From positions 45,374 through 109,373 of the forward strand of contig NZ_JACJST010000021.1 of NCBI RefSeq assembly GCF_014698305.1: a stretch of 64,000 nt of DNA. Reading direction: 5' to 3'. The notes under the pieces are model-generated. The model made no database searches. It was given only the letters and a program-made list of their open reading frames with translations, and was not told the DNA's origin. Each line of letters starts with the position of its first letter. Positions within the stretch are counted from its first letter, which is position 1. The position numbers and the translations under genes were made by a program. The DNA comes from Anabaena lutea FACHB-196. GTDB lineage: Bacteria > Cyanobacteriota > Cyanobacteriia > Cyanobacteriales > Nostocaceae. Positions 1,187 to 14,836 of this stretch are shown here, piece by piece.

Positions 1187-1222
1187 AAAACTACTCTTTG
1201 TTGACCGACTTAACGTAGATTA
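1187..1222. promoter_or_regulatory. Candidate operator, dyad copy 1
   Basis: Left arm AAAACTAC (1187-1194), 20-bp spacer, right arm GTAGATTA (1215-1222). Arms and spacing match copies at 1751, 7179, 8869 and 14801, and the spacer shares CGA at positions 12-14 with copies 2 and 5. It lies in the intergenic region between the divergent methyltransferase (start 1020) and the ORF at 1345, so it could serve either. TATGGC, 9 nt after the right arm, is a weak -10 candidate. Confidence 0.6.
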
Positions 1223-1344
1223 TTTTAGGAGTATGGCATGACTACGGGTAAAATTCAAGTCTTTTGACAATAAAATATTATGGCTGCCTAAACCTAAAGC
1301 TATCTAATTATTATAATTTCTAAATATACCAAAGAGAGATACCT

Positions 1345-1563
1345 ATGGCAAATGCAACTGCTACAATTCCCTACCGATTAGCGAGTAATGAGTACCAAAG
1401 TGTTATGGACGTTAGCCTTAACGCATCAATAAACTGTTATGGTGCATTACTACGGAAAAAGATAGCAGGTAGGATGCTTACCGCACAAGATAGGATAATT
1501 TACAGCACTTCCCGGTGTTATGAGGTACAAGAACCCCACCCCCGCAAGCGAGGAGGGGGCTAA
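1345..1563 (+). CDS. Small hypothetical protein, 3' end replaced by a MITE-like repeat
   Basis: A 72-aa frame starting MANATATIPYRLASNEYQ, with a purine-rich GAGAGA stretch about 6 nt before the ATG. It is not recognised. The first ~52 residues are unique sequence. The last ~20 residues and the stop codon are encoded by the inverted-repeat element at 1501-1594, so the natural C-terminus has probably been lost. The dyad 123 bp upstream suggests that it is, or was, a member of the local regulon. It may be a decaying gene. Confidence 0.4.
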   Translation: MANATATIPYRLASNEYQSVMDVSLNASINCYGALLRKKIAGRMLTAQDRIIYSTSRCYEVQEPHPRKRGGG

Positions 1564-1594
1564 GATGTACCTTATATAATTGGAAACTGCTGTA
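1501..1594. mobile_element. MITE-like element with 28-bp terminal inverted repeats
   Basis: The left end (1501-1528) begins TACAGCACTTCCC and finishes GAGGTAC. The right end (1567-1594), reverse-complemented, begins TACAGCAGTTTCC and finishes AAGGTAC; the two 28-nt ends align without gaps. The centre is a GC-rich hairpin (CCCCACCCCCGC / GCGAGGAGGGGG). TA at both outer ends fits the target duplication of IS630/Tc1-type elements. There is no ORF of its own. A related single end lies near 32990. Confidence 0.55.
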
Positions 1595-1965
1595 TTTCCA
1601 GGAGTTCCCTTAGCCTGAATAGCATTTTGATTGAAAAGTTTGGCTATATATTTAGCCTAGCTAACAATTAGCCATTAATAAATTTGGTTAAAGGTATATT
1701 TAATTGAATCCAGCACTTGTCTTCTCGCTAGAGTTATGTAATGATACTTGTAAACTACGCTAAATTGGTCGATAAATTGTAGATTATCTTTCAAGTAGAA
1801 TATCTGACAATTGCGATCGCACCCACCTTAGTATCAAATGCTTCGCTAATACTCACAATATCTACTCAGTACGAATTGGGCTTGAAATCTGTAATCACGA
1901 CTTACAGAAAGGTTTTCTAGAACCAATGAAAGAAATTATTCAGAAATTTAGAAATTTAATTACAG
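1595..1965. other. Intergenic promoter region of the sulfatase operon
   Basis: AT-rich and without a convincing gene. It carries dyad copy 2 (1751-1786) with TAGAAT 9 nt downstream of it. A 17-codon frame (1926-1979) starting MKEIIQKFRN overlaps the sulfatase start in another frame; whether it is a translated leader is unknown. No Shine-Dalgarno sequence precedes the sulfatase ATG. Confidence 0.5.
1751..1786. promoter_or_regulatory. Candidate operator, dyad copy 2 (sulfatase operon)
   Basis: Left arm TAAACTAC (1751-1758), 20-bp spacer with CGA at positions 12-14, right arm GTAGATTA (1779-1786). TAGAAT follows 9 nt downstream as a good -10 box, which would place the dyad at about -65 to -22, as expected for an activator. 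The ~75-bp context around it aligns with copy 5 at 14801. Confidence 0.65.
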
Positions 1966-3276
1966 ATGGTTTCTACTAACTTTGCTCTCAAACAGCGTCC
2001 TAATGTAGTCTTCATTTTAGCTGACGATTTAGGTTGGGGTGATCTGAGTATTGATGGACAAACAAACTATCAGACACCCCATTTAGACCAATTAGCAAAA
2101 GAGGGAATACGTTTTAGCCAAGCTTATTCTGATTCCCCAGTTTGTACACCCACCAGAATTGGTTTTTTTACAGGACGTTATCCAGGAAGACTAGCAATAG
2201 GAAATTATGAACCCTTACTAAGTTTTCAGCAAATAGGAGACACTGTTGGACTACCTCCAGAACATCCCACCATAGCCTCTTTATTAAAAGCAAATGATTA
2301 TGAAACAGCCTTAATTGGAAAATGGCATTGTGGTTATTTGCCCAAATATAGCCCATTAAAAAGTGGCTTTGATGAATTTTTTGGTAACTTTAGTGGAGCA
2401 ATTGATTACTTTCGTCATGTAGATACTAGTGGAGAACCTGACCTCTGGGAAGCTGACGTAAAAGTTGAGGAAATAGGCTACATCACAGACATATTTACTG
2501 AACGTGCTGTAGATTTTATCAAACTTCCTCGTAGCAATCCTTTTTATCTCAGCTTACATTACACTGCACCTCATTGGCCTTGGGAAGGGGCTGAAGATAT
2601 AGAACTAAGTAACGCTTTAATTGGTAGAGATAATCTACAAAATTGGGTTAACACAGGTACAGCAGAATCTTATGCAGCAGTTGTACAGAGTCTAGATCAT
2701 GGTGTTGGTAGAGTATTGCAAGCTTTAGAAGATACCGGAATAGCTGAAAATACCATCGTGATTTTTGCTAGTGATAATGGAGGGGAAAAGTTCTCTAATT
2801 TTGGGACTTTTCAAGGCAAAAAAGGAAATTTATATGAAGGTGGAATCCGAGTTCCTACCTTTATTCGTTGGACTGGAGTTATTGCCCCAAATCAAATAAG
2901 TGATCAAGTAATCATCACCCATGATATTACAGCTACAATTCTGGCAGCAACGCAAACTAATTCCGACCTTAATTATCCTTTGGATGGTGAAAATTTACTG
3001 CCTATTATTCAAGGTGAAATTCCTGCTCATGCTCGAACATTATTTTGGAGACATAAGGGAAATAACCGACCTGGTTTACCGCTCAGAGTTAAACAAGGTG
3101 CGGTTCGTAGTGGAGACTGGAAGTATTTGAAAGTGGGAAAAGATGAATATCTTTTTAATCTTGCTCATGATGAAAAAGAAGAAATTGATCTCCAAGTAGA
3201 ACATAGAGAAATATTTGAAGAATTAAGGTCTAAATATCAGACATGGGAATCTGAATTAGAACCTTATTTAGTTTGA
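1966..3276 (+). CDS. Sulfatase (arylsulfatase family)
   Basis: Type I sulfatase of the alkaline-phosphatase superfamily, 436 aa, hydrolysing sulfate esters to free sulfate. NVVFILADDLGWGD (residues 13-26) gives the metal-binding Asp20-Asp21. C60-T-P-T-R is the C-x-P-x-R signature whose Cys is converted to formylglycine. GKWH (118-121) and FASDNGG (Asp270, Asn271) supply further active-site and metal ligands. No signal peptide is visible, so it is probably cytoplasmic, or exported in a way not obvious here. It is the first gene of a run continuing through GNAT, flavoprotein and ferredoxin, with dyad copy 2 in its promoter. The substrate is not predictable. Confidence 0.92.
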   Translation: MVSTNFALKQRPNVVFILADDLGWGDLSIDGQTNYQTPHLDQLAKEGIRFSQAYSDSPVCTPTRIGFFTGRYPGRLAIGNYEPLLSFQQIGDTVGLPPEHPTIASLLKANDYETALIGKWHCGYLPKYSPLKSGFDEFFGNFSGAIDYFRHVDTSGEPDLWEADVKVEEIGYITDIFTERAVDFIKLPRSNPFYLSLHYTAPHWPWEGAEDIELSNALIGRDNLQNWVNTGTAESYAAVVQSLDHGVGRVLQALEDTGIAENTIVIFASDNGGEKFSNFGTFQGKKGNLYEGGIRVPTFIRWTGVIAPNQISDQVIITHDITATILAATQTNSDLNYPLDGENLLPIIQGEIPAHARTLFWRHKGNNRPGLPLRVKQGAVRSGDWKYLKVGKDEYLFNLAHDEKEEIDLQVEHREIFEELRSKYQTWESELEPYLV

Positions 3277-3291
3277 ATCAATGGCTTGAGT

Positions 3292-3786
3292 ATGAAATCA
3301 ATCAAAATTCGTGATTATCAGCCAGAGGATTTAGAGAATATTGTTCAACTTTGGTATGGAACATGGCATCAAACCTTTCCCCATCTCCAGCACCCACAAC
3401 CATATTCTGAATGGAAACAAAAATTTTATGAATTAGTAAAGGACGGGGATATTTTTGTTGCTGACGTTGAAAACAAAATTGCTGGTTTTGCAGTTATCCT
3501 GACGAAAGAACAATGTTTAAGCCAGCTTTTTGTAGATGAGAATTACCAAAATTTAGGTATTGGGTCAGCATTACTGAATCTTGCTAAAAGATTGTGTCCT
3601 CAAGGACTGAATCTTTACACATTACAAGAAAATATTAAGGCTCGTGCATTTTATGAAAAACACGGTTTTAAAGCGAGAACATTTTCAATTAATGAATTTA
3701 ACGGTCAACCGAATGTTGAATATTATTGGGAACCTGAACCTGTTTTAGCATCTTTATCTTTTAACAGTTTAGAAAAACATAGTTGA
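3292..3786 (+). CDS. GNAT family N-acetyltransferase
   Basis: About 164 aa. The acetyl-CoA binding motif is LFVDENYQNLGIGSALLNLAKR (Q-x-x-G-x-G/S type), and ARAFYEKHGFKA is the C-terminal GNAT strand-helix, so the fold is complete. A TTG at 3286 is in frame, but the ATG at 3292 is preferred. It lies 15 bp after the sulfatase, and its stop overlaps the upstream part of the flavoprotein frame, so it is operonic. The substrate is unknown, perhaps an amine-containing sulfur compound. Confidence 0.85.
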   Translation: MKSIKIRDYQPEDLENIVQLWYGTWHQTFPHLQHPQPYSEWKQKFYELVKDGDIFVADVENKIAGFAVILTKEQCLSQLFVDENYQNLGIGSALLNLAKRLCPQGLNLYTLQENIKARAFYEKHGFKARTFSINEFNGQPNVEYYWEPEPVLASLSFNSLEKHS

Positions 3787-3806
3787 CGAATCAGGAGGAC
3801 AAGGAA

Positions 3807-5468
3807 TTGATTACAGAAAATGAACTACAACTAACTGCTGACGTGCTGGTAATTGGTGGTGGCCCTGCCGCAGCTTGGGCAGCATCGGCCGCCGCATCTC
3901 AAGGTGTCAAAGTAATCATTGTTGATAAAGGCTTTCTCGGTACAAGTGGTGCTGCTGCGGCCAGTGGTAATGGCATCATGGCTCCTTCTCCTGAGAATTG
4001 GGAAAAAGTTGTATCAGAACGTTATCGTGTGGCCAAAGACCTCGCTAACTTGCGTTGGATCGAGCGTGTGGTCGAAAAAACTTGGCTGAGTTTGCCCTTA
4101 GTGGAAAGTTGGGGTTATCGCTTTCCTAAAGAAAACGGTGAATCAGTACGCCAAAGTTATTATGGCCCGGAATATATGCGAATCCTTCGCAAACACCTTT
4201 TGCGAGTGGGTGTGCAGATTCTAGATCAAAGTCCGGCTTTAGAACTGTTATTAGCTGAAGATGGCTCGGTAGCAGGTGCTAGAGGTGTGCAAAGACAACA
4301 TCATCGTGCCTATACTGTTCGCGCAGGTGCAGTAGTTTTAGCGAATGGCGGTTGTGCATTTTTGAGTAAAGCCTTGGGTTGCAATACCAACACAGGTGAT
4401 GGAATGCTGATGGCAGTAGAAGCCGGTGGTGAACTCTCCAGTATGGAAGCTTCAAATCACTATGCTATCTCCACCGCTTTCAATGCCACAGTGACAAGAG
4501 GCGTTCCTTTTGGCTGGGCTAGTTATACTGATGAAGAAGGTAATGATTTGGGTGGCTATATCAATGGTCGTCGAGATCCATCCTTCCTTCCCAACGCCTT
4601 GATGAAAGGCCCTGTTTATGCTCGTTTAGATCGAGCCAGTTCTGAAGTCAAGGCAGTGGTTGAAAAGTCTCATTTCATCGCTTTTCTACCTTATAAAAAA
4701 GCTGGCATTGATCCCTATACAGAAAGAGTTCCCGTGACCTTGGTGTTTGAAGGTACAGTCCGTGGTACAGGGGGAATTCGGATTATCAATGATAGTTGCG
4801 GTACAAAAGTGCCAGGACTTTACGCGGCTGGTGATGCGGCATCACGGGAGTTTTTAGCAGGTTTAGCTTCGGGAGGTGGTGGCCCTAATGCTGCTTGGGC
4901 AATTTCCACAGGACAATGGGCAGGAGAAGGTGCAGCTGCTTTTGCCAAGAGTCTGGGGATTCATGCAAATGAACGGGTAGTGCGTCCTGCTGGACAAGTG
5001 GGATTGCGATCGCCTATGGCGGGGCGTAGCCCATCGCAGTCTTCAACTTCAGAAACATTCGATAGTGAGGCGATCGCACGTGCTGTCCAATCTGAAATAT
5101 TCCCGTTAGAGAAGAATTACTTGCGTTCTGAGCAGAAACTTTTAGATTCCCTCGCCAAATTAGAAACACTGTGGCAACAGGTAAAAGGCAATCCAAAACA
5201 AGATACAGTGCGCGATATGGAATTTTCTCGGCGAGCGGCTGCTCTCACGGCAGTAGCACGTTGGGCTTATTTTAGTGCCTTACATCGTCAGGAAACCCGA
5301 AGCGAACATATTCGTGTGGACTATCCTGAAACCGATCCCAATCAGCTTTATTACCAAGCTACAGGAGGCTTAGATAGGCTTTGGGTTAGGCGTGATTGGA
5401 TTAAGGATGAAATCGGTACACCATCAGTATTAACCACTCAAACTACATACTCTGTATCCAAATCTTAA
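3807..5468 (+). CDS. FAD-binding oxidoreductase, AprA/fumarate-reductase flavoprotein-like
   Basis: Flavoprotein of the succinate dehydrogenase/fumarate reductase/adenylylsulfate reductase alpha superfamily. DVLVIGGGPAAAWAASAAASQG is the N-terminal Rossmann FAD site, and LYAAGDAASREFLAGLASGGG is the C-terminal FAD contact. The frame opens at TTG 3783, but AGGAGG (3793-3798) is spaced 8 nt from an in-frame TTG at 3807, the better start. A HIP1-containing repeat (about 5006-5038) is inserted in frame and encodes GLRSPMAGRSPSQ, probably a surface loop. The two-cluster ferredoxin follows 9 bp later, as AprB follows AprA. The true substrate is unknown; sulfite/APS chemistry is one option given the neighbours. 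Confidence 0.8.
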   Translation: MITENELQLTADVLVIGGGPAAAWAASAAASQGVKVIIVDKGFLGTSGAAAASGNGIMAPSPENWEKVVSERYRVAKDLANLRWIERVVEKTWLSLPLVESWGYRFPKENGESVRQSYYGPEYMRILRKHLLRVGVQILDQSPALELLLAEDGSVAGARGVQRQHHRAYTVRAGAVVLANGGCAFLSKALGCNTNTGDGMLMAVEAGGELSSMEASNHYAISTAFNATVTRGVPFGWASYTDEEGNDLGGYINGRRDPSFLPNALMKGPVYARLDRASSEVKAVVEKSHFIAFLPYKKAGIDPYTERVPVTLVFEGTVRGTGGIRIINDSCGTKVPGLYAAGDAASREFLAGLASGGGGPNAAWAISTGQWAGEGAAAFAKSLGIHANERVVRPAGQVGLRSPMAGRSPSQSSTSETFDSEAIARAVQSEIFPLEKNYLRSEQKLLDSLAKLETLWQQVKGNPKQDTVRDMEFSRRAAALTAVARWAYFSALHRQETRSEHIRVDYPETDPNQLYYQATGGLDRLWVRRDWIKDEIGTPSVLTTQTTYSVSKS

Positions 5469-5477
5469 CGGAAGATC

Positions 5478-5819
5478 ATGATCGAACTTGTCAGCCATAA
5501 ACTCTGTATTAATTGCAATCTCTGCGTCCAAGTTTGTCCTACCAATGTCTTTGATGCAGTTCCCAATCAACCACCTGCGATCGCCCGCAAGGAAGATTGT
5601 CAAACTTGTTTTATGTGTGAGGCATATTGTCCTGCGGATGCGCTTTATGTTGCACCGGAATCTCATACCGAGATTGCAGTCAATGAGGATGATTTAATTG
5701 CAAGTGGCATTATGGGTGAATATCGTCGGATCTTGGGTTGGGGATATGGCAAGAAAAACAATAGTGAGTTAGATACTGCTCATAAACTGCGTCAACTGCC
5801 CCGTCCTTATCAAAGTTAA
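5478..5819 (+). CDS. 2[4Fe-4S] ferredoxin (AprB-like electron carrier)
   Basis: 113 aa with two complete cluster motifs: CINCNLCVQVCP (residues 10-21) and CQTCFMCEAYCP in the next 30 residues, each C-x2-C-x2-C-x3-C-P. The C-terminal half is cluster-free and includes a GYGKKNN segment. It starts at ATG 5478, 9 bp after the flavoprotein stop. It most likely passes electrons to or from that flavoprotein's FAD. Confidence 0.88.
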   Translation: MIELVSHKLCINCNLCVQVCPTNVFDAVPNQPPAIARKEDCQTCFMCEAYCPADALYVAPESHTEIAVNEDDLIASGIMGEYRRILGWGYGKKNNSELDTAHKLRQLPRPYQS

Positions 5820-5833
5820 TTTGAGGCAACAAC

Positions 5834-6481
5834 ATGGGCAAAACAGAGTTCAAACTTGTAATTTTTGATTGTGATGGAGTGTTGGTTGATAGTGAACCAA
5901 TTATCAATCGCATTTTTGCAGAAACGCTCACTGAATTTGGTTTTCCTATCACCCATGCAGAAGTAACTCAAAAATTTATAGGAAAATCTCTCAAAACTTG
6001 TTTAGAGATTATCGAGCAATCCTACCAGAAACCATTGCCGAAAAATTTTATTGAACTTTGTAAGGAACGAGAATTCGCTGCAATGCAGCAAGAGTTACAG
6101 GCAGTTTCGGGCATTACCGAACTATTGGAGCAAATTACCTTACCAAAATGTGTAGCATCAAATAGTAGCCAACACCATATTCAATTTGTCTTGAAATTAA
6201 CAGGACTTCTACATCAATTTGAAGGAAAAATATATAGCTGTTATGATGTTTTGCGTCCTAAACCTTTTCCTGATGTATATCTCTATGCAGCCGAGCAAAT
6301 GAACACAAATCCAGAACATTGTGTTGTAATTGAAGACTCTGTACCGGGTGTGCAAGCTGCGTATGCGGCAGGAATGACCGTTTTTGGTTATGCCCAACAT
6401 AGCTATCCTACTGCTCTTACTGCTGCTGGAGCGAAAATAGTTTTTAATGATATGCGGCAACTTTCTCAACTGCTTCTTTAG
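5834..6481 (+). CDS. HAD-IA family phosphatase
   Basis: 215 aa, HAD subfamily IA (phosphoglycolate phosphatase/beta-phosphoglucomutase type). Motif I is VIFDCDGVLVDSEP with nucleophile Asp12, motif II is CVASNSS, the Lys sits in RPKPFPDVY, and motif III is VIEDSVPGVQAAYAAGM. A helical cap lies between motifs I and II. It is 14 bp downstream of the ferredoxin and probably in the same operon. The substrate is unknown: a small sugar phosphate or similar metabolite. Confidence 0.85.
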   Translation: MGKTEFKLVIFDCDGVLVDSEPIINRIFAETLTEFGFPITHAEVTQKFIGKSLKTCLEIIEQSYQKPLPKNFIELCKEREFAAMQQELQAVSGITELLEQITLPKCVASNSSQHHIQFVLKLTGLLHQFEGKIYSCYDVLRPKPFPDVYLYAAEQMNTNPEHCVVIEDSVPGVQAAYAAGMTVFGYAQHSYPTALTAAGAKIVFNDMRQLSQLLL

Positions 6482-6544
6482 CGTTGGGAAGCTAAAAATT
6501 ATGAACTCATCTCTAAAGAGTACGATGGCTGTGCGATATCACCT

Positions 6545-7132
6545 ATGGTTAGCCATAACAAACAACTCTCTATAAGACAAGTCAACATAGATGAAATTCC
6601 ACTCCTTCACCAAATCCTGATAGCTTGTGGTTTGAACTTAAAAGAACGGTTTGGTCTGAGTCACTGGATGCCACCAAATTATCCTCTTGAAGAAATGCTC
6701 AAGGATGCCATAGAACAGGATATCTATGCCGTCACAATTGGTAAAAACCTTGTTGGTACTTTCACGCTGGAAATGATGACAACTGTTCCATTGAGCTACA
6801 TGAGGTATGGAAACATTATTTGGCAAATACCAGAAGATGTTCCAGCAGTGTATGTCCATAAACTAGCAATTCTTCCAACTTGGCAAGGAAAAGGACTAGG
6901 AACTTGGTGTATGCAAACTATTGAGAAACTAACAATTAAACAAGGTTACTATGCTGTTCGGTTGGATGGAGTGAAGACACACCCAAAACTCTTGTTTTTC
7001 TATCAAAACCAAGGCTATCAGCAAGTGGGGGAACTAATTTACAACTCAGATATATGGGTTGATGCAATTGTCTTTGAGAAAGTTTTAAAGTTTTCTTCTC
7101 CAGGTATTGCATTTGGCAATAGCCTTGTTTGA
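6545..7132 (+). CDS. GNAT family N-acetyltransferase
   Basis: 195 aa. AILPTWQGKGLGTWCMQTIEK is the acetyl-CoA binding loop (Q-x-K-G-x-G), and VHKLAILP is the preceding strand. LLFFYQNQGYQQVGEL matches the C-terminal GNAT half. It is co-oriented, 63 bp after the HAD gene. It is not obviously related to the GNAT at 3292 outside the motifs. The substrate is unknown. Confidence 0.82.
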   Translation: MVSHNKQLSIRQVNIDEIPLLHQILIACGLNLKERFGLSHWMPPNYPLEEMLKDAIEQDIYAVTIGKNLVGTFTLEMMTTVPLSYMRYGNIIWQIPEDVPAVYVHKLAILPTWQGKGLGTWCMQTIEKLTIKQGYYAVRLDGVKTHPKLLFFYQNQGYQQVGELIYNSDIWVDAIVFEKVLKFSSPGIAFGNSLV

Positions 7133-7178
7133 GGTTTGATATCCGCAACCCTTTTCCCTTTTACACTTTGAAACTTGC

Positions 7179-7214
7179 AAAACTACGGTAATTTGATACA
7201 CTTGGCGTGGATTA
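7179..7214. promoter_or_regulatory. Candidate operator, dyad copy 3 (O-methyltransferase)
   Basis: Left arm AAAACTAC (7179-7186), identical to copy 1, then a 20-bp spacer and right arm GTGGATTA (7207-7214; one change from GTAGATTA). It is 57 bp upstream of the O-methyltransferase ATG. The spacer lacks the CGA of copies 1, 2 and 5. Confidence 0.5.
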
Positions 7215-7271
7215 GAGATGGAAAAATTGTTTAATTTACTTATTTTTTACCTACTATTGAGGAGATGAACT

Positions 7272-7949
7272 ATGACTCAGGAACAATGGAGCGCAGTTGA
7301 TCACTACATCACCAATCTGCTTGTGCCGTCCGATCCTGCCCTGGATGGGGCGCTGAAATTGAGTGATGAAGCTGGACTCCCACCACACAATGTTTCACCC
7401 AATCAAGGCAAACTACTGTTGCTGTTGGCGCAGATTCACGGGGCGAAGACAATCCTGGAAATTGGCACCCTAGGCGGTTATAGCACAATCTGGCTGGCGC
7501 GCTCGCTACCTGTTGATGGACACCTGATCACTCTAGAGGCTAACCCAAAGCACGCTGAAGTCGCCGACACCAACATCTCTCATGCTGGTCTATCTGACCG
7601 TGTTGAAATCCGTGTTGGACTGGCAGTGGAGACACTACAACAACTTGCCACAGAGAGGCGGACATTTGACCTGATTTTCATTGATGCTGACAAACCAAGC
7701 AATCCAGATTATTTTACGTGGGCGCTCAAGCTTTCTCGTCACGGTACTTTGATTATTGCCGATAATGTTGTCCGCAACGGGGCAGTAATTGATGCAGCTA
7801 GTGAAGATCCCAGTGTTCAGGGGGTGCGTCGCTTCAATGAATTACTTGCCAATGAGCCACGAGTGAGCGCCACGGCAATTCAGACAGTAGGTAGTAAAGG
7901 TTATGACGGCTTTGCTTTAGCTCTTGTTACCTCAATATCTGCATTGTAA
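7272..7949 (+). CDS. O-methyltransferase (CCoAMT/COMT-like family 3)
   Basis: 225 aa. ILEIGTLGGYSTIWLAR (SAM motif I), HLITLEANPKHAEVA (motif II) and FDLIFIDADKPSNPDYFTWAL (catalytic, metal-binding Asp) are hallmarks of the divalent-metal O-methyltransferase family, acting on catechol-like hydroxyls. A strong GAGGAG lies upstream of the ATG. Dyad copy 3 in the promoter links it to the sulfur island. The acceptor is unknown. Confidence 0.9.
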   Translation: MTQEQWSAVDHYITNLLVPSDPALDGALKLSDEAGLPPHNVSPNQGKLLLLLAQIHGAKTILEIGTLGGYSTIWLARSLPVDGHLITLEANPKHAEVADTNISHAGLSDRVEIRVGLAVETLQQLATERRTFDLIFIDADKPSNPDYFTWALKLSRHGTLIIADNVVRNGAVIDAASEDPSVQGVRRFNELLANEPRVSATAIQTVGSKGYDGFALALVTSISAL

Positions 7950-8012
7950 ACAATTAGATATGTTCTTAAAGCTACCTACTTAATCTGTTTTCGTGACGCA
8001 TAGGGAGGACGT

Positions 8013-8426
8013 GTGAGCAACATCAAAATAGCAGGTGAGGAGATCGAGATACTGCAATGTTTCCCCATCATCAAACAACTTCGTCCACATCTGACTGAGC
8101 AAGCATTTATTAAGCAGGTTCAGCGTCAGCGTGTTAAGTACGGTTATACACTCTGCTATCTAGAAGACTTAGGAAAATTACAGTGTGTTGCTGGGTTCAG
8201 AATATCAGAATGTTTGTGTGATGGGAAATATCTATATGTTGATGATTTAGTGACTGATGAGTTGCAGCGATCGCTTGGATACGGTGAAAAGGTATTTGAA
8301 TGGCTTGTCAACTATGCTCGTGTAAACGGCTGCAACGAGATTGGGCTTGAATCTGGAGTTCAAAGATTTGCTGCACATCGATTTTATATGAAGCAGAGAA
8401 TGCGTATCTCTAGCTCGGTTGCGTGA
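8013..8426 (+). CDS. GNAT acetyltransferase with clipped C-terminus
   Basis: Starts at GTG 8013 with GGGAGG 4 nt upstream. GKYLYVDDLVTDELQRSLGYGEKVFEWLVNYAR is the acetyl-CoA binding region, and FAAHRFYMKQRMRISS corresponds to the last GNAT helix-strand. The final residues after MRIS come from a different gene: around 8404 the sequence becomes the interior of an amidase in another frame. The protein is therefore close to full length, but its own tail and stop are gone. Activity is plausible but unproven. Confidence 0.75.
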   Translation: MSNIKIAGEEIEILQCFPIIKQLRPHLTEQAFIKQVQRQRVKYGYTLCYLEDLGKLQCVAGFRISECLCDGKYLYVDDLVTDELQRSLGYGEKVFEWLVNYARVNGCNEIGLESGVQRFAAHRFYMKQRMRISSSVA

Positions 8427-8606
8427 ACAAGGTGCTGTATTATTGGGCAAAACTACTACATCTGAATTTGGTTGGAAAGGTATTACAGATTCTCCCCTAA
8501 CTGGTATCACTCGTAACCCTTGGAATCTGGAACTCACGCCAGGAGGAAGTAGTGGTGGTGCAGCAGTTGCAGCCGCCTTGGGTTTGGGAACAATTCATTT
8601 AGGTAA
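8404..8606 (+). pseudogene. Amidase-signature family fragment
   Basis: From 8407 the reading SLARLREQGAVLLGKT runs on to a Trp-Lys, RNPWNLELTPGGSSGGAAVA and ALGLGTIHLG. This is the core of the amidase signature family, including the GGSSGG nucleophile loop. Only about 65 residues remain: the N-terminal Lys region is missing at the junction with the GNAT, and after 8606 the sequence turns into repeat-derived DNA. Non-functional. Confidence 0.8.
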
Positions 8607-9004
8607 GGAATACGTGGTTCATTTTTCCGTCACGACTTGCGAAAAATATCTCTCAAACCCTCATTACTCTGTGAACTCCGTGCCTCTGTGGTATGCTTTA
8701 CGGCACGCTACGCGTTAGCGGAGCTTAATGCCTCCGGCACGCTACGCGTAGCTTGCTTCCCGTAGGGTACGCTTTAGCGATACATTTTTCCGTGACTCGT
8801 GCGTAAGTCCTGATTATATTTAACATAAAATAAACAGATTTTTTAACCCATTAAAAATATAAAAATCTTATAATACGGTAAATCTATAGATTTTTAGTAG
8901 AATAGATGTTAATTTAGAATCACATCCTCTGGTATGTCGTTATGAACACATACCGAACAAGTGGACAAGTACGAAAACAGTCCTAATGGATTAAGAGAAT
9001 TCAC
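8607..9004. other. Repeat-rich intergenic region
   Basis: It contains tandem variants of the Nostoc repeat units CGCTACGCGTAGC and TAGGGTACGC (about 8690-8785), then AT-rich DNA with dyad copy 4. No gene is seen; a 99-aa frame running through it is the amidase fragment extended into repeats. Confidence 0.6.
8869..8904. promoter_or_regulatory. Candidate operator, dyad copy 4 (TauD operon)
   Basis: Left arm TATAATAC (8869-8876), 20-bp spacer, right arm GTAGAATA (8897-8904). The first nine spacer bases, GGTAAATCT, resemble GGCAAATCG of copy 5. It is the weakest left arm of the five. TAGAAT lies 10 nt downstream, the same placement as in copy 2. It is about 100 bp upstream of the TauD ATG. Confidence 0.45.
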
Positions 9005-9973
9005 ATGAGCAACAAATATATTGAAGTCAAACAAGTGGCTGGTTTCATTGGTGCAGAAATCAGTGGTGTAGACCTTTCACAACCACTACACGATGATGCG
9101 GTCAAAGAAATTCGTGAAGCACTGTTGAAGTGGAAAGTTATCTTCTTTCGTAATCAAAACATTGACCATGCAGCGCAGATTGCGTTTACAGCCCGCTTCG
9201 GGGAAGTAACTTACGCCCATCCCCACGAAGATGAGCCAATCGAAGGCTTCTCCCAAATCCTGCCCATTGACCGCAGCCGCTATGAGCGCCGTAACGGTTT
9301 GCGCCGTTCTAGCTACGAAAGCCGCTGGCACACCGATGTAACAGCAGCTATCAATCCACCTGCGGCTTCAATTTTGCGTGCAGTTAACGTTCCTAGTTTC
9401 GGCGGTGATACCCAATGGACTAATTTGGTTGCAGCTTACGAAGGTTTGTCAGCCCCCTTACGTGCATTGGCAGATACACTAAAAGCAGAACATCGTTTTA
9501 ATGCTCGGTTAAACATACCCAGCAACAGCAAACTTGCCCAGCGTATTGCTGCCAATCCCATAGTTTCCATCCACCCAGTAGTTAGGGTGCATCCAGAGAC
9601 AGGTGAACGCGCATTGTACGTGAACCCAGGTTTTACTTCCCATATCCTGGATGTGTCTCGCCAAGAAAGCGACCTGTTGCTGGAGTTGTTCTTTAATCAG
9701 ATCACCAAACCTGCTTATACCACCCGCTTCCGTTGGAATAACGGTGACATAGCCTTCTGGGACAACCGCGCTACCGCACATTTAGCTCCCCAAGACTTGG
9801 ATCATATAGAAGTTGAGCGTGTACTTTATCGCACCACTATTACAGGGGATGTTCCTGTTGGGGTAGATGGTTTCCGTTCTCAAATCGTTGAAGGTGAAGT
9901 TTTCAACAGTGAATTACCCACTGTTTTAAAGCAAACAGCCGAAAAGTTAGAACCAGAACTAGCTCTTTCATAA
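9005..9973 (+). CDS. TauD/TfdA-family 2-oxoglutarate-dependent dioxygenase
   Basis: 322 aa Fe(II)/2-oxoglutarate dioxygenase. RWHTDVT carries His109 and Asp111 of the facial triad, FWDNRATAH supplies the distal His near residue 259, and TTRFRWNNGDIAFWDNR holds the 2OG-binding region. Members of the family oxidise taurine, alkyl sulfates or alkanesulfonates to release sulfite or sulfate. The neighbours and dyad copy 4 support a sulfur-acquisition role, but the exact substrate (taurine, alkyl sulfate or other) cannot be read from sequence. It heads a run with the HAD and methyltransferase genes. Confidence 0.9.
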   Translation: MSNKYIEVKQVAGFIGAEISGVDLSQPLHDDAVKEIREALLKWKVIFFRNQNIDHAAQIAFTARFGEVTYAHPHEDEPIEGFSQILPIDRSRYERRNGLRRSSYESRWHTDVTAAINPPAASILRAVNVPSFGGDTQWTNLVAAYEGLSAPLRALADTLKAEHRFNARLNIPSNSKLAQRIAANPIVSIHPVVRVHPETGERALYVNPGFTSHILDVSRQESDLLLELFFNQITKPAYTTRFRWNNGDIAFWDNRATAHLAPQDLDHIEVERVLYRTTITGDVPVGVDGFRSQIVEGEVFNSELPTVLKQTAEKLEPELALS

Positions 9974-10035
9974 GCTAGAAAATAGTAAACTGGGCTGTGG
10001 TTAAATTCTGCAACCCGGTTTATGCAACATAATCT

Positions 10036-10899
10036 ATGAGCGACACAATCTATATTTCAGATTTAGACGGCACACTGCTCACCAAAAATGCGGTTTTGTC
10101 AGACTTCAGTAAAAGCAAGTTGCAAGAACTATTGCAAGATGGACTTCTGTTCACGGTTGCCAGCGCCCGTAGTGTAGTTTCTATGGGTGTAGCTTTGGAT
10201 GGGTTGAAACTACCTCTGCCGATTGTGGAGTTTAATGGAGCTTTTATTTCTGATTTAGAATCTGGTCGTCATGAGATTATCAATAGCATTGAGCCAGAAA
10301 TTATTGAAGATATTTATCAAATTATTTCTAGCTTTAAATGTGTCCCTTTTATTTCCAGTTTTAATGGTGCGGAAGATTGTTGTTATTACCAGGAAATAAT
10401 CAATGAAGGAATGGAGTGGTATCTTAATGATCGCCTATTTCATCAAGATAAACGATTACGATCGCTCACTAAGTTAACCGATTCCTTCCGCGACCAAATA
10501 GTTTGTCTTACCGTCATTAATAAAACTGAAATTCTATCTGAATTAGAAATTATCATCCGAGAAAGATATGGAGACAAAATCCAAACTTATCATTATGAAA
10601 ATAATTATGCTCCTGGCTGGCACTGGCTGACAATTCATAGTTATAAAGCAACAAAGGCTCAGGGCATCCTTACCCTACAAGAAATTTATGGATTAACCAG
10701 CAATAAATTGATTGTGTTCGGGGATCATAACAACGATATTGAAATGTTTAAAATTGCCGATTATGCAATTGCCGTTGATAACGCAACGGTGGAATTAAAG
10801 CGCCACGCAAATCATATCATTGAGTCCCATGAAGTCGATAGTGTTGTGCGATATATCTACCAAGATTGGAGTCAACAGACCTCGCTTAAATTAGTTTAG
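10036..10899 (+). CDS. Cof-type HAD-IIB phosphatase
   Basis: 287 aa. Motif I ISDLDGTLLTKN (Asp9, Asp11) is at the extreme N-terminus and motif III LIVFGDHNNDIEMFKIADYAIAV near the C-terminus, with a large IIB cap between them: the Cof/YbjI family of sugar-phosphate phosphatases. It lies 62 bp after TauD and 23 bp before the next methyltransferase, hence probably one operon. Substrate unknown. Confidence 0.85.
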   Translation: MSDTIYISDLDGTLLTKNAVLSDFSKSKLQELLQDGLLFTVASARSVVSMGVALDGLKLPLPIVEFNGAFISDLESGRHEIINSIEPEIIEDIYQIISSFKCVPFISSFNGAEDCCYYQEIINEGMEWYLNDRLFHQDKRLRSLTKLTDSFRDQIVCLTVINKTEILSELEIIIRERYGDKIQTYHYENNYAPGWHWLTIHSYKATKAQGILTLQEIYGLTSNKLIVFGDHNNDIEMFKIADYAIAVDNATVELKRHANHIIESHEVDSVVRYIYQDWSQQTSLKLV

Positions 10900-10922
10900 A
10901 TTACATCTTGGAGAGAAATACC

Positions 10923-11765
10923 ATGTCAGAATCATCTAAGATACAAAACTTGCTTGCAGATGAGGTGTTAGCTCATTACGAACTTGGTTTAGAAGCTCAA
11001 CGTTTATCTAAGCGGACAAATCCAATTGAATTAGCCCGTACCCAAGAAATTATCAGCCGCTACTTGCCTCCTCCACCCGCAGTCATTTTTGATGTTGGTG
11101 GCGGTTCTGGTATCTATGCTACTTGGCTTGCCCAGCAAGGCTATGAAGTTCATCTGATTGATCCAGTTCCCTTACATTTAGAGCAAGCGCGGAGTGCTTC
11201 CCAGGCTCAACCAGATCATCCAATTGCAAGTATTACATTTGGTGATGCTCGCCAATTAGATCGGGCAGATGCCAGTGTAGATGCTGTGCTTCTACTTGGG
11301 CCACTGTATCACTTGATTGAACAAAGCGATCGCCTTCAAGCTTTACGCGAAGCTAACCGGATTTTAAAAAGCGGAGGGCTGGTATTTGCCGTTGCCATTT
11401 CTCGTTTTTCTTCTCTAGTAGACGGGTTGTTTCGTGGATATCTGGATGACCCAGAATTTGTAGAAATTGTCAAAGGCGATTTAGCTAATGGCCAGCACCG
11501 TAATCCTACTAATAATCCAGCTTACTTTACGACCACTTTTTTCCATCATCCTGATGAACTCAAAGCAGAAGTAGAAGCAGCAGGTTTAGTTTGTGAACAT
11601 CTTTTAGGTATCGAAGGGCTAGGTAAATTACTACAGAATTTTGAGGAACATTGGAGTGACCCAAATCGCCGTGAAACGCTCCTACAAGCTATTCGCTGGC
11701 TGGAGGCTGAACCTTCCACATTAGGAATTAGCTCCCATATTTTGGCTGTTGCTAAAAAAGAGTAA
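10923..11765 (+). CDS. Class I SAM-dependent methyltransferase
   Basis: 280 aa. VIFDVGGGSGIYATWLAQQGY (motif I), VHLIDPVPLHLEQA (motif II) and VDAVLLLGPLYHLIEQSDRLQALREANRILKSGG (post-motif Leu/Gly block) identify a Methyltransf_11/25 protein. The frame opens at TTG 10908, but GGAGA 8 nt before the ATG at 10923 gives the better start. Substrate unknown. Confidence 0.85.
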   Translation: MSESSKIQNLLADEVLAHYELGLEAQRLSKRTNPIELARTQEIISRYLPPPPAVIFDVGGGSGIYATWLAQQGYEVHLIDPVPLHLEQARSASQAQPDHPIASITFGDARQLDRADASVDAVLLLGPLYHLIEQSDRLQALREANRILKSGGLVFAVAISRFSSLVDGLFRGYLDDPEFVEIVKGDLANGQHRNPTNNPAYFTTTFFHHPDELKAEVEAAGLVCEHLLGIEGLGKLLQNFEEHWSDPNRRETLLQAIRWLEAEPSTLGISSHILAVAKKE

Positions 11766-11793
11766 CAGTTCTCCCCAAAACGCATATATAGCA

Positions 11794-11888
11794 GGAGTCA
11801 GAAGTCAGGAGTCAGAAGTAAAGCCCTCTTGTAGTGGGAGTTTCATGAGCAATTGATGTCCTCACTACTCTGTCTACGGCTATATCAA
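11794..11888. repeat. Dispersed AGTCAGGAGTCAG / CTGTCTACGGCTAT repeat
   Basis: Begins with tandem GGAGTCAGAAGTCA units and ends ACTCTGTCTACGGCTATA. A second copy with the same ends lies at 18058-18171. Copies in the other orientation (ending CTGACTTCTGCTGTAT or CTGAATTCTGCTGTAT) lie at 14575-14675 and 27775-27875. It sits between convergent genes. Confidence 0.6.
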
Positions 11889-12024
11889 ACGAGTAATCAA
11901 AAGTATAAATTACTATTATATTTTCCGAAATAAACACTGCTCTATCAGTTAACTTGAAGCCAGAAAAATGCTCCTAAATGCCGCAGAATCCCCAGCGTCC
12001 AGTGTACGCTTTGTTGGGGTTCCT

Positions 12025-12777
12025 TTATGCAGGCTTTCTGCTGGCTTTTAAAAACAAAGGCCATTGCACTAATTTAGTTTTACCAGGCTCATTCCAGATT
12101 GTTTTCAATTTTATCTCCAGTTGGTCAACTGGGTCGTTTCCAAGTTCTGCTGAATAGCGTTTCACCGCAGACCAAGTACGGAAATACCCTAATAATTGCT
12201 GTAAATTCCACTCTACCTTCATTGAAAAATTTTTTGGGATGTTAATTTCATCAAACGGAAGGACTAAATCACGATAGCCATTTTTTACTTGGCGATTGCC
12301 GCTTGCCCAAAATCGGTCGATCGGCTCAAGTAAATTCTTAGTAATAGTTTCATCAATTTCGGGTTCAATTTCTAACCGACCATAACCCCAAACAGCTAAA
12401 ATACCTTTTGGTTTTAGTACTCGTTCTACTTCTTGAAAAAATTTTTCTTGGTCAAACCAGTGTATTGCCAAAGCTACCATAACCAAATCAAATAACTGGT
12501 TTTCAAATGGGGTATGTTCAGCAGGAGAAACACTGTAGTTTATCTTATGATGTGTGATGGAGTGTTGAATTTGCTCGACACTAATATCAGTTGCTTCAAC
12601 ATGTGAAAAAAATTTTGCACATGAGATGGCTGCTTGCCCATTTCCAGTTGCACAATCCCAGGCGCGGTCGTGATATTCGGAAATTTCGCTCAAAAATAAA
12701 AAAAGCTCATCGGGGTATTGAGGTCTATGTTTGGCATATTGTTCCGAATTGAGCGAAAAGCTTTGAATGTTGTTCAC
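12025..12777 (-). CDS. Class I SAM-dependent methyltransferase
   Basis: 250 aa Methyltransf_11 protein. RAWDCATGNGQAAISCAKFF is motif I, VEATDISVEQIQ motif II, and FDLVMVALAIHWFDQEKFFQEVERVLKPKGILAVWGYG the post-motif region. The N-terminal SEQYAKHRPQYPDELF block resembles that of the methyltransferase at 202-1020. It is the nearest gene downstream of the flavin monooxygenase on the same strand (85 bp gap), so the two may be cotranscribed. Substrate unknown. Confidence 0.85.
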   Translation of the reverse strand: MNNIQSFSLNSEQYAKHRPQYPDELFLFLSEISEYHDRAWDCATGNGQAAISCAKFFSHVEATDISVEQIQHSITHHKINYSVSPAEHTPFENQLFDLVMVALAIHWFDQEKFFQEVERVLKPKGILAVWGYGRLEIEPEIDETITKNLLEPIDRFWASGNRQVKNGYRDLVLPFDEINIPKNFSMKVEWNLQQLLGYFRTWSAVKRYSAELGNDPVDQLEIKLKTIWNEPGKTKLVQWPLFLKASRKPA

Positions 12778-12862
12778 TGTTACTCCGATAAAAAGAACTG
12801 GAAGCCCAACGGCTTAATTGAGCGGCAAGCGATCGCTTTTCAATTCTGTCTACGGTTATACA

Positions 12863-14236
12863 TTACCGAACAGACGTAGTTGCGGTCTGAAAAAAGCGAT
12901 TAGCAGGGCGTGTCAATCCCAGATTTTCCCGCAGCGTCTTACCTTCGTACTCTTGGCGAAAAATTCCCCGCCGTTGGAGTTCTGGAATCACTTTGTCCAC
13001 AAAATCATTTAGCCCTTCTGGCAGAAAAGGGAACATAATATTGAAGCCATCAGACCCTTCCTCAATCAGCCATTGTTCCATCTCGTCAGCAATGCTTTGG
13101 GGCGTACCCACAAAGGCCAGTCCACCATAACTACCGATGCGTTGCGCCAACTGACGAATTGTTAGATTTTCCCGTTGCGCCATTGCAATCACTCGTTCTC
13201 GTGAAGTTTTTCCGGCGTTAGTAGGGGGGATTTCCGGTAAATAACCATCGGGGTCAAAATGGGAAACGTCGTAGCCAAGTGCGCTATTTAAACTAGCAAT
13301 ACCACTTTCATAGTGTACTAGGCTATCCAAGTGAACTCGCTTGGCACGTGCTTCGGCAACGGTTTCACCCACAACGACTAAAGCTCCAGGAAGAATTTTA
13401 ATACTATCTGGATCTCGTCCGAGCGATGGCGCAAAGCGCCCGCCGGAAGGCGATCGCACACGACCCTTAATATCAGCATAGAACGCCTTACCCATCTCCA
13501 GATTGCCAGCTGATGCAAACACGACCTCGGCAGTGGCAGCAGCCAGTTGACGACCTGCTTCAGAAGCTCCTGCTTGGACTATCACTGGCCAACCTTGAAC
13601 AGGTCTAGCGATGTTCAATGGCCCCCGCACCGACAGGTGTTTTCCTTGATGATTGAGAACGTGAATTTTTTCGGGATCAAAATAAATTCCTGATTCCACA
13701 TCTCGAACAAAAGCATCGTCCGCAAAGGAATCCCAAAGACCAGTGACGACTTCATAAAATTCTCTCGCTCGCACGTAGCGTTCATCATGCTCTATCTGCT
13801 CTTCTAATCCAAAGTTAAGTGCTGCATCTGGATTAGCTGTGGTGACGATGTTCCAACCAGCACGACCGCCACTGATATGGTCAAGAGACGCAAAGCGGCG
13901 AGCAATGTGGTAAGGCTGGTCATAAGTCGTGGAAGCAGTAGCTACCAGTCCAATGTGTTCGGTGACGCTGGCGAGAGCAGAAAGCAGAGTGAATGGCTCG
14001 AAGGAGGTAACAGTATGACTGCGTTTGAGGGCGTTAATGGGCATATTCAGCACTGCTAAATGATCAGCCATGAAGAATGCATCGAACTTCCCTTGTTCTA
14101 GTTTCTGAATGAATCGTTTCAGTGCTGGGAAGTTAAAATTAGCGTCAGGTAAAGCCCCAGGATAACGCCAAGCACCTGTGTGTATACTGACAGGTCGCAT
14201 AAAAGCACCTAACTTTAACTGCTTTGATCCACTCAT
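12863..14236 (-). CDS. LLM flavin-dependent monooxygenase, NtaA/SnaA/DszA type
   Basis: 457 aa bacterial-luciferase-like TIM barrel, at the length usual for the NtaA/DszA group. GAWRYPGALPDANFNF at the N-terminus, FDAFFMADHLAVL, TYDQPYHIARRFASLDHISGGRAGWNIVTT and QAGASEAGRQLAAATAEVVF are the FMN and structural motifs of this group. Members use FMNH2 and oxygen to cleave C-N or C-S bonds (nitrilotriacetate, sulfones, alkylsulfonates). The context favours an organosulfur substrate. No flavin reductase partner is in the window. No dyad copy was found upstream. Confidence 0.88.
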   Translation of the reverse strand: MSGSKQLKLGAFMRPVSIHTGAWRYPGALPDANFNFPALKRFIQKLEQGKFDAFFMADHLAVLNMPINALKRSHTVTSFEPFTLLSALASVTEHIGLVATASTTYDQPYHIARRFASLDHISGGRAGWNIVTTANPDAALNFGLEEQIEHDERYVRAREFYEVVTGLWDSFADDAFVRDVESGIYFDPEKIHVLNHQGKHLSVRGPLNIARPVQGWPVIVQAGASEAGRQLAAATAEVVFASAGNLEMGKAFYADIKGRVRSPSGGRFAPSLGRDPDSIKILPGALVVVGETVAEARAKRVHLDSLVHYESGIASLNSALGYDVSHFDPDGYLPEIPPTNAGKTSRERVIAMAQRENLTIRQLAQRIGSYGGLAFVGTPQSIADEMEQWLIEEGSDGFNIMFPFLPEGLNDFVDKVIPELQRRGIFRQEYEGKTLRENLGLTRPANRFFQTATTSVR

Positions 14237-14328
14237 TCTTCCTCCGTATAAATTCAGGGTAAATTTTTATAAAAGGTAAGTATTCAAACTCTTTAATATG
14301 GGCTGTTAATCGAAATTTTGTATAACTT

Positions 14329-14427
14329 CTAGCTGGCTATTGCTTCACTTTCTACTGTTAACGCCCGCACTCTTGGTATAATTTCCACCGCAAAACGCTC
14401 TATTTCTGTGGCAAAGGGCTGGAATTG
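14329..14427 (-). pseudogene. C-terminal remnant of a luciferase-like monooxygenase
   Basis: Read on the minus strand, the segment gives MQFQPFATEIERFAVEIIP followed by RVRALTVESEAIAS and a stop. I-E-R-F-A-x-E-I-I-P is the usual C-terminal helix of LLM flavin monooxygenases. The rest of the gene is absent, so this is probably a relic of a second monooxygenase upstream of the intact one. Confidence 0.5.
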
Positions 14428-14574
14428 CATTCAGATAAAAATACGGCAAGTCAATAGGTTTACTGTAGTATTTTACTCATATTTGCACAAATGAACAGAA
14501 AAAGCAAGTGGGTATTGTGACTTAAACATTTTTGAAGAAGAAAAAAGTGTAATACAGAATCAAAATTAAAACCT

Positions 14575-14680
14575 ATACACCAAGCCAGTTTTACTCCTGA
14601 CTCCGGTTGGTGCATCTCGACTACGCTCGATAACCGCGAAGTCGAACCACTGACTCCTGACTTCTGCTGTATAGCCAAAC
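14575..14680. repeat. Dispersed ACACCAAGCCAGTTTTACTC repeat
   Basis: Shares its left end with the segment at 27775-27875 (ACCAAGCCAGTTTTACTCCT) and its right end (CTGACTTCTGCTGTAT) with the reverse complement of the repeats at 11794 and 18058. The frames crossing it are not genes. Confidence 0.6.
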
Positions 14681-14800
14681 TAATCAAAACAAGGTCAAAG
14701 TCCCTTTGGATATATATTTGAGGCGATTTTATTGGTGTTTTTCCCTAAGTCCCATAAATCTGCTACTTGTCATTTAGCCAGAGTTATGTCATTATACTAA

Positions 14801-14836
14801 TAATCTACGGCAAATCGCTCGACAAACAGTAGATTA
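14801..14836. promoter_or_regulatory. Candidate operator, dyad copy 5 (amidohydrolase)
   Basis: Left arm TAATCTAC (14801-14808) and right arm GTAGATTA (14829-14836) form a perfect 8-bp inverted repeat around a 20-bp spacer with CGA at positions 12-14. It is the best copy of the five. The preceding GAGTTATGT and following CTGACA are also shared with copy 2. It is about 215 bp upstream of the amidohydrolase ATG. Confidence 0.68.

Follow-up and report, generated by a model that had tools for sequence, protein, structure and literature searches.

A 36-bp palindromic motif at sulfur-scavenging operons of Anabaena lutea and its candidate regulators

A stretch of 64,000 nucleotides from Anabaena lutea FACHB-196 (contig NZ_JACJST010000021.1, positions 45,374 to 109,373; hereafter the window, with positions counted from its first letter) had been described in a first-pass annotation as carrying five copies of an 8-20-8 dyad, which were taken to define a local sulfur-scavenging regulon and to lie where LysR-type activators bind. 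The arms of the dyads form the two ends of a 36-bp palindrome, TAAACTACGGTAAnTCGATCGAnTTACCGTAGTTTA, and on the sequence evidence this palindrome is a real sulfur-regulon motif of the whole class. A CymR-like Rrf2 protein and a Crp-family protein, whose own genes carry the motif, are candidate regulators; both are encoded on a contig other than that of the window. That the CymR-like protein reads this putative operator as a repressor is a proposal that we hold with about even confidence. What the sequences show is the palindrome, the genes beside it, its presence before rrf2-cysK and the nearby Crp gene, and its spread through the class.

The palindrome in the window

All five dyads were present in the sequence (Table 1), and 20 bp was the commonest of the spacings from 8 to 31 when up to two mismatches were allowed (7 matches, next best 2), as the annotation had it. 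At up to one mismatch the window contains 6 strand matches, compared with a mean of 0.01 and a largest count of 1 in 100 dinucleotide shuffles. Admitting the copy at 8869 takes three mismatches, a level at which 10 matches are seen against 2.57 in shuffles (largest 8). This copy is therefore weak by the 8-20-8 pattern; over the full 36 bp it scores 31.9 with a matrix whose training set includes it. The palindrome is the consensus of 22 sites in the A. lutea genome and contains the blocks CTAC/GTAG, GGTAA/TTACC and TCGATCGA. The CGA noted earlier at spacer positions 12-14 is indeed shared by copies 1, 2 and 5 and belongs to this TCGATCGA core. A sixth site, overlooked in the first pass, lies at 14437-14472, upstream of the monooxygenase gene at 12863-14236; it scores 24.0 with a matrix built from the other five only, and random sequence gave 0 matches per 2 Mb at 18 or above.

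The wider context common to the copies at 1751 and 14801 was also confirmed (78% over 72 bp), and the surroundings of copy 1 share 74% identity over 193 bp with the promoter at L036:11139 (L, G and C denote loci, genomes and contigs, G000 being A. lutea). Wider promoter sequence is thus common within one group made up of 1187 and L036:11139 and within another made up of 1751, 14801 and L026:8741, with weaker cross-matches between the groups, so that not all copies of the motif are independent. An origin as a repeat or mobile element was rejected; the remaining matches among 19 compared contexts are short, about the length of the motif. Mismatch patterns were tried as a detector and proved too unspecific (CTACGGTAA-N10-TTACCGTAG gave 8 matches against 5 in the control, and a shorter form 37 against 38); sites were therefore sought with matrices and a sequence-only profile instead.

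The motif across the genome

The profile of the 36-mer, applied to the 6.06-Mb A. lutea genome with 150 of 2593 candidates scored, returned at least 23 sites, spread over five contigs, at E<0.004, followed by a gap to 0.047; 22 of the 23 are in the profile itself. A search of the genome with the 8-20-8 pattern had already found sites on another contig that have the palindromic middle too. With the matrix from the five window sites alone, 16 places outside the window score above 20 and 19 places score at least 18.6, the scored loci having been preselected by pattern hits. Among them are the rrf2-cysK promoter (25.9 and 24.6) and the crp gene (19.0).

By Pfam matches, the genes next to the motif encode sulfatases, a sulfatase-modifying enzyme with a rhodanese, three TauD proteins, Ssu-type transporters, two sulfate-binding proteins with a permease, two TauE proteins, monooxygenases, glutathione S-transferases, nitroreductases and a porin. 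An O-acetylhomoserine sulfhydrylase (named from a match to an NCBIfam-type model) and the Rrf2 regulator with cysK are also found there. In our own reading of the Pfam tables, 12 of the 23 sites stand at operons with a plainly sulfur-related gene family, and most of the others are at oxidoreductase, glutathione S-transferase or methyltransferase genes within the same clusters. The site at C34:258642 has no clear sulfur neighbour. A weaker site, C34:75908, lies 96 bp before a chromate transporter gene (L112:8618-9811, G000:C34), and a chromate transporter is also encoded in the sulfur cluster of plasmid pANL (see below).

Some further genes and places by the motif are of note. L038:9520-9969 (A. 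lutea, minus strand), directly at whose start the palindrome lies, encodes a 149-aa membrane-like protein, assigned to PF25937 by a list of homologues; its relatives adjoin TauE or CymR genes in several other genomes. A weak copy of the motif (E 2.18) precedes a gene for a histidine kinase fused to a phosphonate-binding domain (L037:10405-12558, G000:C1). With a matrix score of 20.7, locus L023, a chance pattern match that had served as a control, may represent one more site.

The motif in other cyanobacteria

Within the order, 46 of 120 genomes have a profile match at E≤0.01. Fifteen of the 29 motif loci examined outside A. lutea hold a sulfur-specific relative of a protein of the A. lutea regulon, two more have a cysteine dioxygenase or a 3'-phosphoadenosine-5'-phosphosulfate reductase, and the other 12 have generic ATP-binding cassette (ABC) or kinase matches only, one hydrolase, or nothing. 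Chance loci given the same treatment yielded no sulfur-specific match (0/20), five of them matching generic ABC ATPase or kinase queries only. A scan of the class, with strict filters and 28 candidates scored per genome, found the motif in at least 99 of 242 genomes. Only one CymR-like gene is present in 49 of the motif genomes; 24 of these were searched again, and 17 of the 23 loci newly examined have a sulfur-gene match, counting an SsuB match of 56% and an SsuA match of 24%. The description of the regulon as local is therefore not supported, with sites on five contigs of A. lutea and in so many genomes of the class. The sulfur-scavenging role proposed for it is supported by the 12 of 23 sites at sulfur operons and by the sulfur genes at motif loci elsewhere. 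In three genomes, strong sites adjoin ORFs (open reading frames) of 439-479 aa without a Pfam match (L098:1-1320, L102:125-1501 and L107:2-1438).

A CymR-like regulator with the motif at its promoter

The Rrf2 gene of A. lutea (G000:C12:458918-459397, an ORF of 160 aa) has the motif twice at its start and is followed after 22 bp by cysK. A promoter site (score >15, -300 to +36) is present in 78 of 80 named Nostocales loci, which are mutually related and are the best 80 of 555 candidates, and in 0/80 when the sequences are reversed; the matrix was trained without the two rrf2-promoter sites and is independent of the tested loci. In 65 of these 80 loci cysK directly follows the Rrf2 gene, and the protein ends in MYYI in 77 (20/20 in a smaller set). 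The product matches the Rrf2 domain (PF02082, 1.8e-33), and among solved structures it is closest to 4cic, deposited as IscR of T. potens (E 6.7e-20) and itself ending in MYYI, and to CymR (2y75, E 6.7e-17); both are also the top fold matches. CymR is the best equivalog model as well (93 bits, aligned to the last model position). The ORF contains only one Cys and therefore no cysteine triad for an iron-sulfur (Fe-S) cluster. A single structure model has a mean predicted local distance difference test score of 79.8, with the final three residues below 50. The nearest named relative of A. lutea by this protein is Anabaena catenula FACHB-362 (L114, 99% identity).

CymR has been described as a repressor that forms a complex with CysK, the sensor of O-acetylserine, and is held on DNA by it (PMC2940859). 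No Fe-S cluster is bound by CymR (PMC9338935), and CysK partners, CymR included, have a C-terminal Ile in common (PMC12895370, PMC4961446). The accessible parts of three papers on the Rrf2 protein Slr0846 of Synechocystis make no mention of sulfur control (PMC7058544, PMC8066212, PMC8205485).

In a tree of 82 Rrf2 proteins the motif is found at the promoters of 23 of 27 members of one clade, 5 of 6 of a second and 0 of 48 housekeeping members; one further row, outside these clades, is without it. The motif follows the tree (3 changes against 23.5 with shuffled labels), the tree being a quick one from few columns with many open forks. Moreover, in three families of other orders the second paralogue (58-63% identical) has the motif in 4/4 cases examined. 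Among the 45-48% paralogues examined none scores above 15, one reaching 13.8. At the level of genomes, a CymR-like gene is present in all 99 motif genomes of the 242 and the motif in 0/40 genomes that have no such gene (Fisher's test, 9e-11, kinship ignored). Genomes with at least two CymR-like genes have on average 7.7 motif matches compared with 1.5 (both strands counted), and any match at all occurs in 50/69 of them against 49/133 of those with one. Within the order 45 of the 46 genomes with the motif have an Rrf2 match at E≤1e-20, compared with 30 of the 74 without it.

Housekeeping pairs often have a different palindrome

A. lutea has a second, housekeeping copy of the same rrf2-cysK pair (G000:C31:3315), with the same MYYI tail and a regulator that is 46-47% identical. 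Promoters of such pairs that lack the 36-mer contain RYCCC-N11-GGGRY in 16 of 54 cases, mostly as ACCCC-N11-GGGGT abutting a TATACT/TATAAT -10-like box, against 0 of 28 promoters with the 36-mer (expected 0.008 per promoter). A near-invariant AAACCCCAGTGGAGAACCGGGGTATACT element is found in the housekeeping promoters of L203 (upstream of 1504), L206, L207, L210, L217 and others. The housekeeping promoter of A. lutea itself (L113, upstream of 3321) does not match the RYCCC-N11-GGGRY pattern. The inner GGTAA arms of the 36-mer and the ACCCC arms of the housekeeping palindrome are at the same distance from the dyad, 6-10 bases, which is compatible with one Rrf2 geometry.

A Crp-family regulator with the motif

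The second candidate is a Crp-type protein of 196 aa (L032:14984-15574), whose gene starts 1.6 kb from the start of rrf2 and which has a Crp helix-turn-helix domain (PF13545, 6.2e-14). Its own site scores 17.4 and was outside the training set of the matrix. A crp gene is in the examined stretch at 52 of the 80 named loci, 51 of them with a site above 13 between -350 and +60 of its start, and 13 of 21 crp ORFs at other loci also have one. The recognition helix is NtcA-like by alignment; the nearest curated models, PtrA and NtcA, are both under their cut-off. All Crp homologues among the matches listed (n=120) end in YYEI or YYQI, that of A. lutea in YYEI; this tail resembles those of CysK partners although the protein family is another one.

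The sulfur-starvation genes of Synechococcus elongatus need CysR, and the srp genes of its plasmid pANL respond to sulfur and depend on CysR. We take the Crp-family protein (L032:14984-15574) to be a possible counterpart of CysR. In pANL (46,366 bases) the best 36-mer match lies in the sulfur cluster, 30 bp before an Rrf2 gene with an MFYI tail, and scores 18.0 against 7.6 in the reversed control. The next four (9.8, 9.4, 8.7 and 8.4) are little over the control; they stand before a run of genes with an ABC transporter (9.8), within an unrelated gene (9.4), before a copper-binding protein gene (8.7) and before a carbonic anhydrase gene (8.4). The system of PCC 7942 resembles that of A. lutea in having a Crp-type regulator, in A. 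lutea with the motif at its own gene, and, on pANL, related genes for Rrf2, CysK, a chromate transporter, carbonic anhydrase and MgtC, but pANL has only the one strong site.

Which protein reads the operator?

If the CymR-like protein (C12:458918-459397) is the reader, the length of the 36-bp palindrome makes it probable that two dimers would bind. With ample cysteine and little O-acetylserine, the C-terminal MYYI tail would be occupied by CysK, which would keep the repressor on its DNA site, as reported for CymR of Bacillus subtilis. On sulfur starvation O-acetylserine would release CysK and the repressor would leave the DNA. The sulfatase, TauD, Ssu, monooxygenase and sulfate-transport operons would then be expressed, as would cymR, cysK and the gene for the Crp regulator; this Crp protein, with its aromatic-x-Ile tail, would be a second, co-induced regulator and possibly an activator. 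The CymR-like protein is also favoured by the way the promoter motif tracks its clade, by the cysK gene beside it, by the pANL site in front of an Rrf2 gene and by the poor fit of the palindrome to Crp geometry. The placement of the sites supports a repressor-like mode of action, with sites in our own reading 0, 11 and 14 nt from the start codons at L038:9970, L033:9493 and L033:9935. The TAGAAT reported 9-10 nt downstream is present for the copies at 1751 and 8869 but is not a general rule: TAnnnT boxes, which occur inside the palindrome arms too, were counted in 189 oriented flanks of 136 nonredundant sites, and 6 lie at 9 nt and 4 at 10 nt against a mean of 3.4, the highest counts being 13 at 4 nt and 12 at 14 nt.

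Several observations weigh against this assignment. A motif at a regulator's gene fits equally well with the regulator being a mere target, and the motif is found at the Crp-family gene too (51/52 named loci and 13/21 other ORFs), for which reason Rrf2 as sole reader has been downgraded. Only one CymR-like gene (E≤1e-25) is present in 49 of the 99 motif genomes. In G143, G157, G297 and G172 this single gene belongs to the housekeeping clade and its promoter has the different palindrome, and crp genes with the motif occur in such single-gene genomes (L252/G143, L246/G157, L254/G140, L297/G240 and L303/G202). Four members of the first Rrf2 clade are without the motif at their promoter, and in G112, a genome of the order with the motif, no Rrf2 protein is matched at E≤1e-20. 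Both Rrf2 types have an almost identical recognition-helix region although the arm letters of their palindromes differ, and the 93-bit score does not reach the curated CymR cut-off (NF047409, 195 bits). Finally, the motif counts over many genomes come from filtered scans with limited candidates, and the phylogenetic counts ignore kinship.

A serious rival reading, though one that we hold with less confidence, is that the palindrome is instead read by the Crp-family protein, the likely CysR counterpart, with the rrf2-cysK pair as one of its targets. The sites near crp starts agree with this, including those in genomes with one CymR-like gene and those where only the housekeeping type of CymR is seen, as do the uniform tail and the best match on pANL, a plasmid with CysR-dependent srp genes, in its sulfur cluster. 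However, 8 of the 21 other crp ORFs have no nearby site, among them those of L306/G004 and L313/G164, both with one CymR-like gene, and where crp and rrf2 diverge (L041, L049 and L232) one site could serve either gene. A test for Crp-type half-sites about 22 bp wide failed: despite the NtcA-like recognition helix, positions -7 to -5 from the dyad are A, A and n rather than the GTA of the standard geometry. In addition, 36 bp is long for a single Crp dimer (about 22 bp), the fixed -10 distance that class II activation would require is missing, and the closest curated models fall below cut-off.

A broader arrangement, which we consider rather unlikely, would place two unrelated factors, the duplicated CymR-like Rrf2 protein and the Crp protein, under one operator, with CysK reading the cysteine pool for both through their aromatic-Ile tails while the older CymR-CysK pair keeps its different operator. 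It is improbable that the two proteins, the CymR-like one as a repressor, both act at the site and compete for the same or overlapping parts of the palindrome. Both genes carry a site and are close together in 52 of 80 named loci, and the palindrome is unusually long, with outer, middle and central conserved blocks, but no example is known to us in which one dyad axis is common to an Rrf2 and a Crp protein.

An unrelated regulator, of the LysR type or another kind, is very unlikely: the site is long and LysR proteins control sulfur genes in other bacteria (PMC2940859), but none of the 6 LysR genes of A. lutea lies within 30 kb of a site on its contig, and the -10 peak at 9-10 nt that would have gone with the suggested LysR-type activation is lacking. 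Nor is LysR among the 25 most frequent of 154 Pfam families beside motif sites, where the Crp domain is represented by two proteins (104 proteins from 46 of 52 loci; L082, L083, L085, L090, L095 and L104, four of which hold an Rrf2 gene, were omitted).

Comparison with known systems

The CymR-like candidate is of a kind already known. With CymR-CysK of B. subtilis and Staphylococcus aureus it shares an Rrf2 fold without Fe-S cysteines, an aromatic-Ile tail, sulfur and cysteine targets and CysK as the predicted partner enzyme. It differs in that cysK lies directly behind the regulator gene in most loci (65/80), the putative operator is a 36-bp palindrome, the targets comprise sulfatases, sulfonate and taurine use and sulfate transport, and the score is below the curated cut-off. 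The housekeeping CymR-like/cysK operons have the same gene pair and tail but, in place of the 36-mer, RYCCC-N11-GGGRY (16/54). In the open-licence literature searched, as far as its text was accessible, no description was found of this operator, its targets or the double-regulator arrangement, nor of any sulfur-starvation regulator or motif of filamentous cyanobacteria.

For the response of filamentous cyanobacteria to sulfur starvation, these results provide a defined putative operator, a list of targets and two candidate regulators. Should CysK sense the cysteine pool here as it does in Bacillus, the moonlighting switch would extend to another phylum. The motif also offers a handle on genes of unclear role that carry it, such as those for the PF25937 protein, the amidohydrolase and the oxidoreductase-ferredoxin pair described next.

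Genes of the window

Features of the window are given in Table 1. For the flavin adenine dinucleotide (FAD)-dependent oxidoreductase at 3783..5468 all listed NCBIfam matches are far under cut-off, and the TauD-family protein reaches 253 bits with the taurine dioxygenase model, under its cut-off of 313. The earlier statement that the window has no regulator gene agrees with the lack of any LysR, Rrf2 or Crp match in it, these being the families searched for.

Table 1. Predicted operator copies and neighbouring genes in the window
Feature	Position	Strand	Evidence
Operator copy 1 (36-bp palindrome)	1187..1222	.	exact arms; matrix 33.2
Operator copy 2, upstream of sulfatase operon	1751..1786	.	exact arms; matrix 35.0
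Sulfatase	1966..3276	+	PF00884 1.2e-62
FAD oxidoreductase, fumarate reductase/adenylylsulfate reductase superfamily	3783..5468	+	PF00890 1.7e-22
Ferredoxin-like 4Fe-4S protein	5478..5819	+	PF00037, PF14697
Operator copy 3, upstream of O-methyltransferase	7179..7214	.	one arm mismatch (GTGGATTA); matrix 33.9
O-methyltransferase	7272..7949	+	PF01596 3.8e-43
Operator copy 4, upstream of tauD	8869..8904	.	three arm mismatches (TATAATAC / GTAGAATA); matrix 31.9
TauD-family dioxygenase	9005..9973	+	PF02668 5.1e-58
NtaA/DmoA-family flavin mononucleotide (FMN)-dependent monooxygenase	12863..14236	-	TIGR03860 554 bits, above cut-off
Operator copy 6, upstream of divergent NtaA/DmoA-type monooxygenase	14437..14472	.	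matrix from other five 24.0; also pattern match
Operator copy 5, upstream of amidohydrolase and SsuA-type genes	14801..14836	.	exact arms on both strands; matrix 37.5
Amidohydrolase	15052..16536	+	PF04909 2.9e-11
Aliphatic-sulfonate ABC transporter substrate-binding protein (SsuA family)	16793..17887	+	TIGR01728 193 bits, above cut-off 163.5

The target of copy 1 may be the divergent methyltransferase gene at 202-1035 or a gene that has been lost. The ORF downstream of this copy (1345-1563, 72 aa) has no convincing relatives in the A. lutea loci searched. The promoter resembles that of a gene for a dihydroxyphenylalanine (DOPA)-dioxygenase-like protein (L036:10639-11007), so the original target may no longer be there. 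What looks like a gene remnant is found at 8419-8718, where an amidase fragment covers only positions 87-149 of the 445 of the model and is adjoined by short repeats at about 8700-8790.

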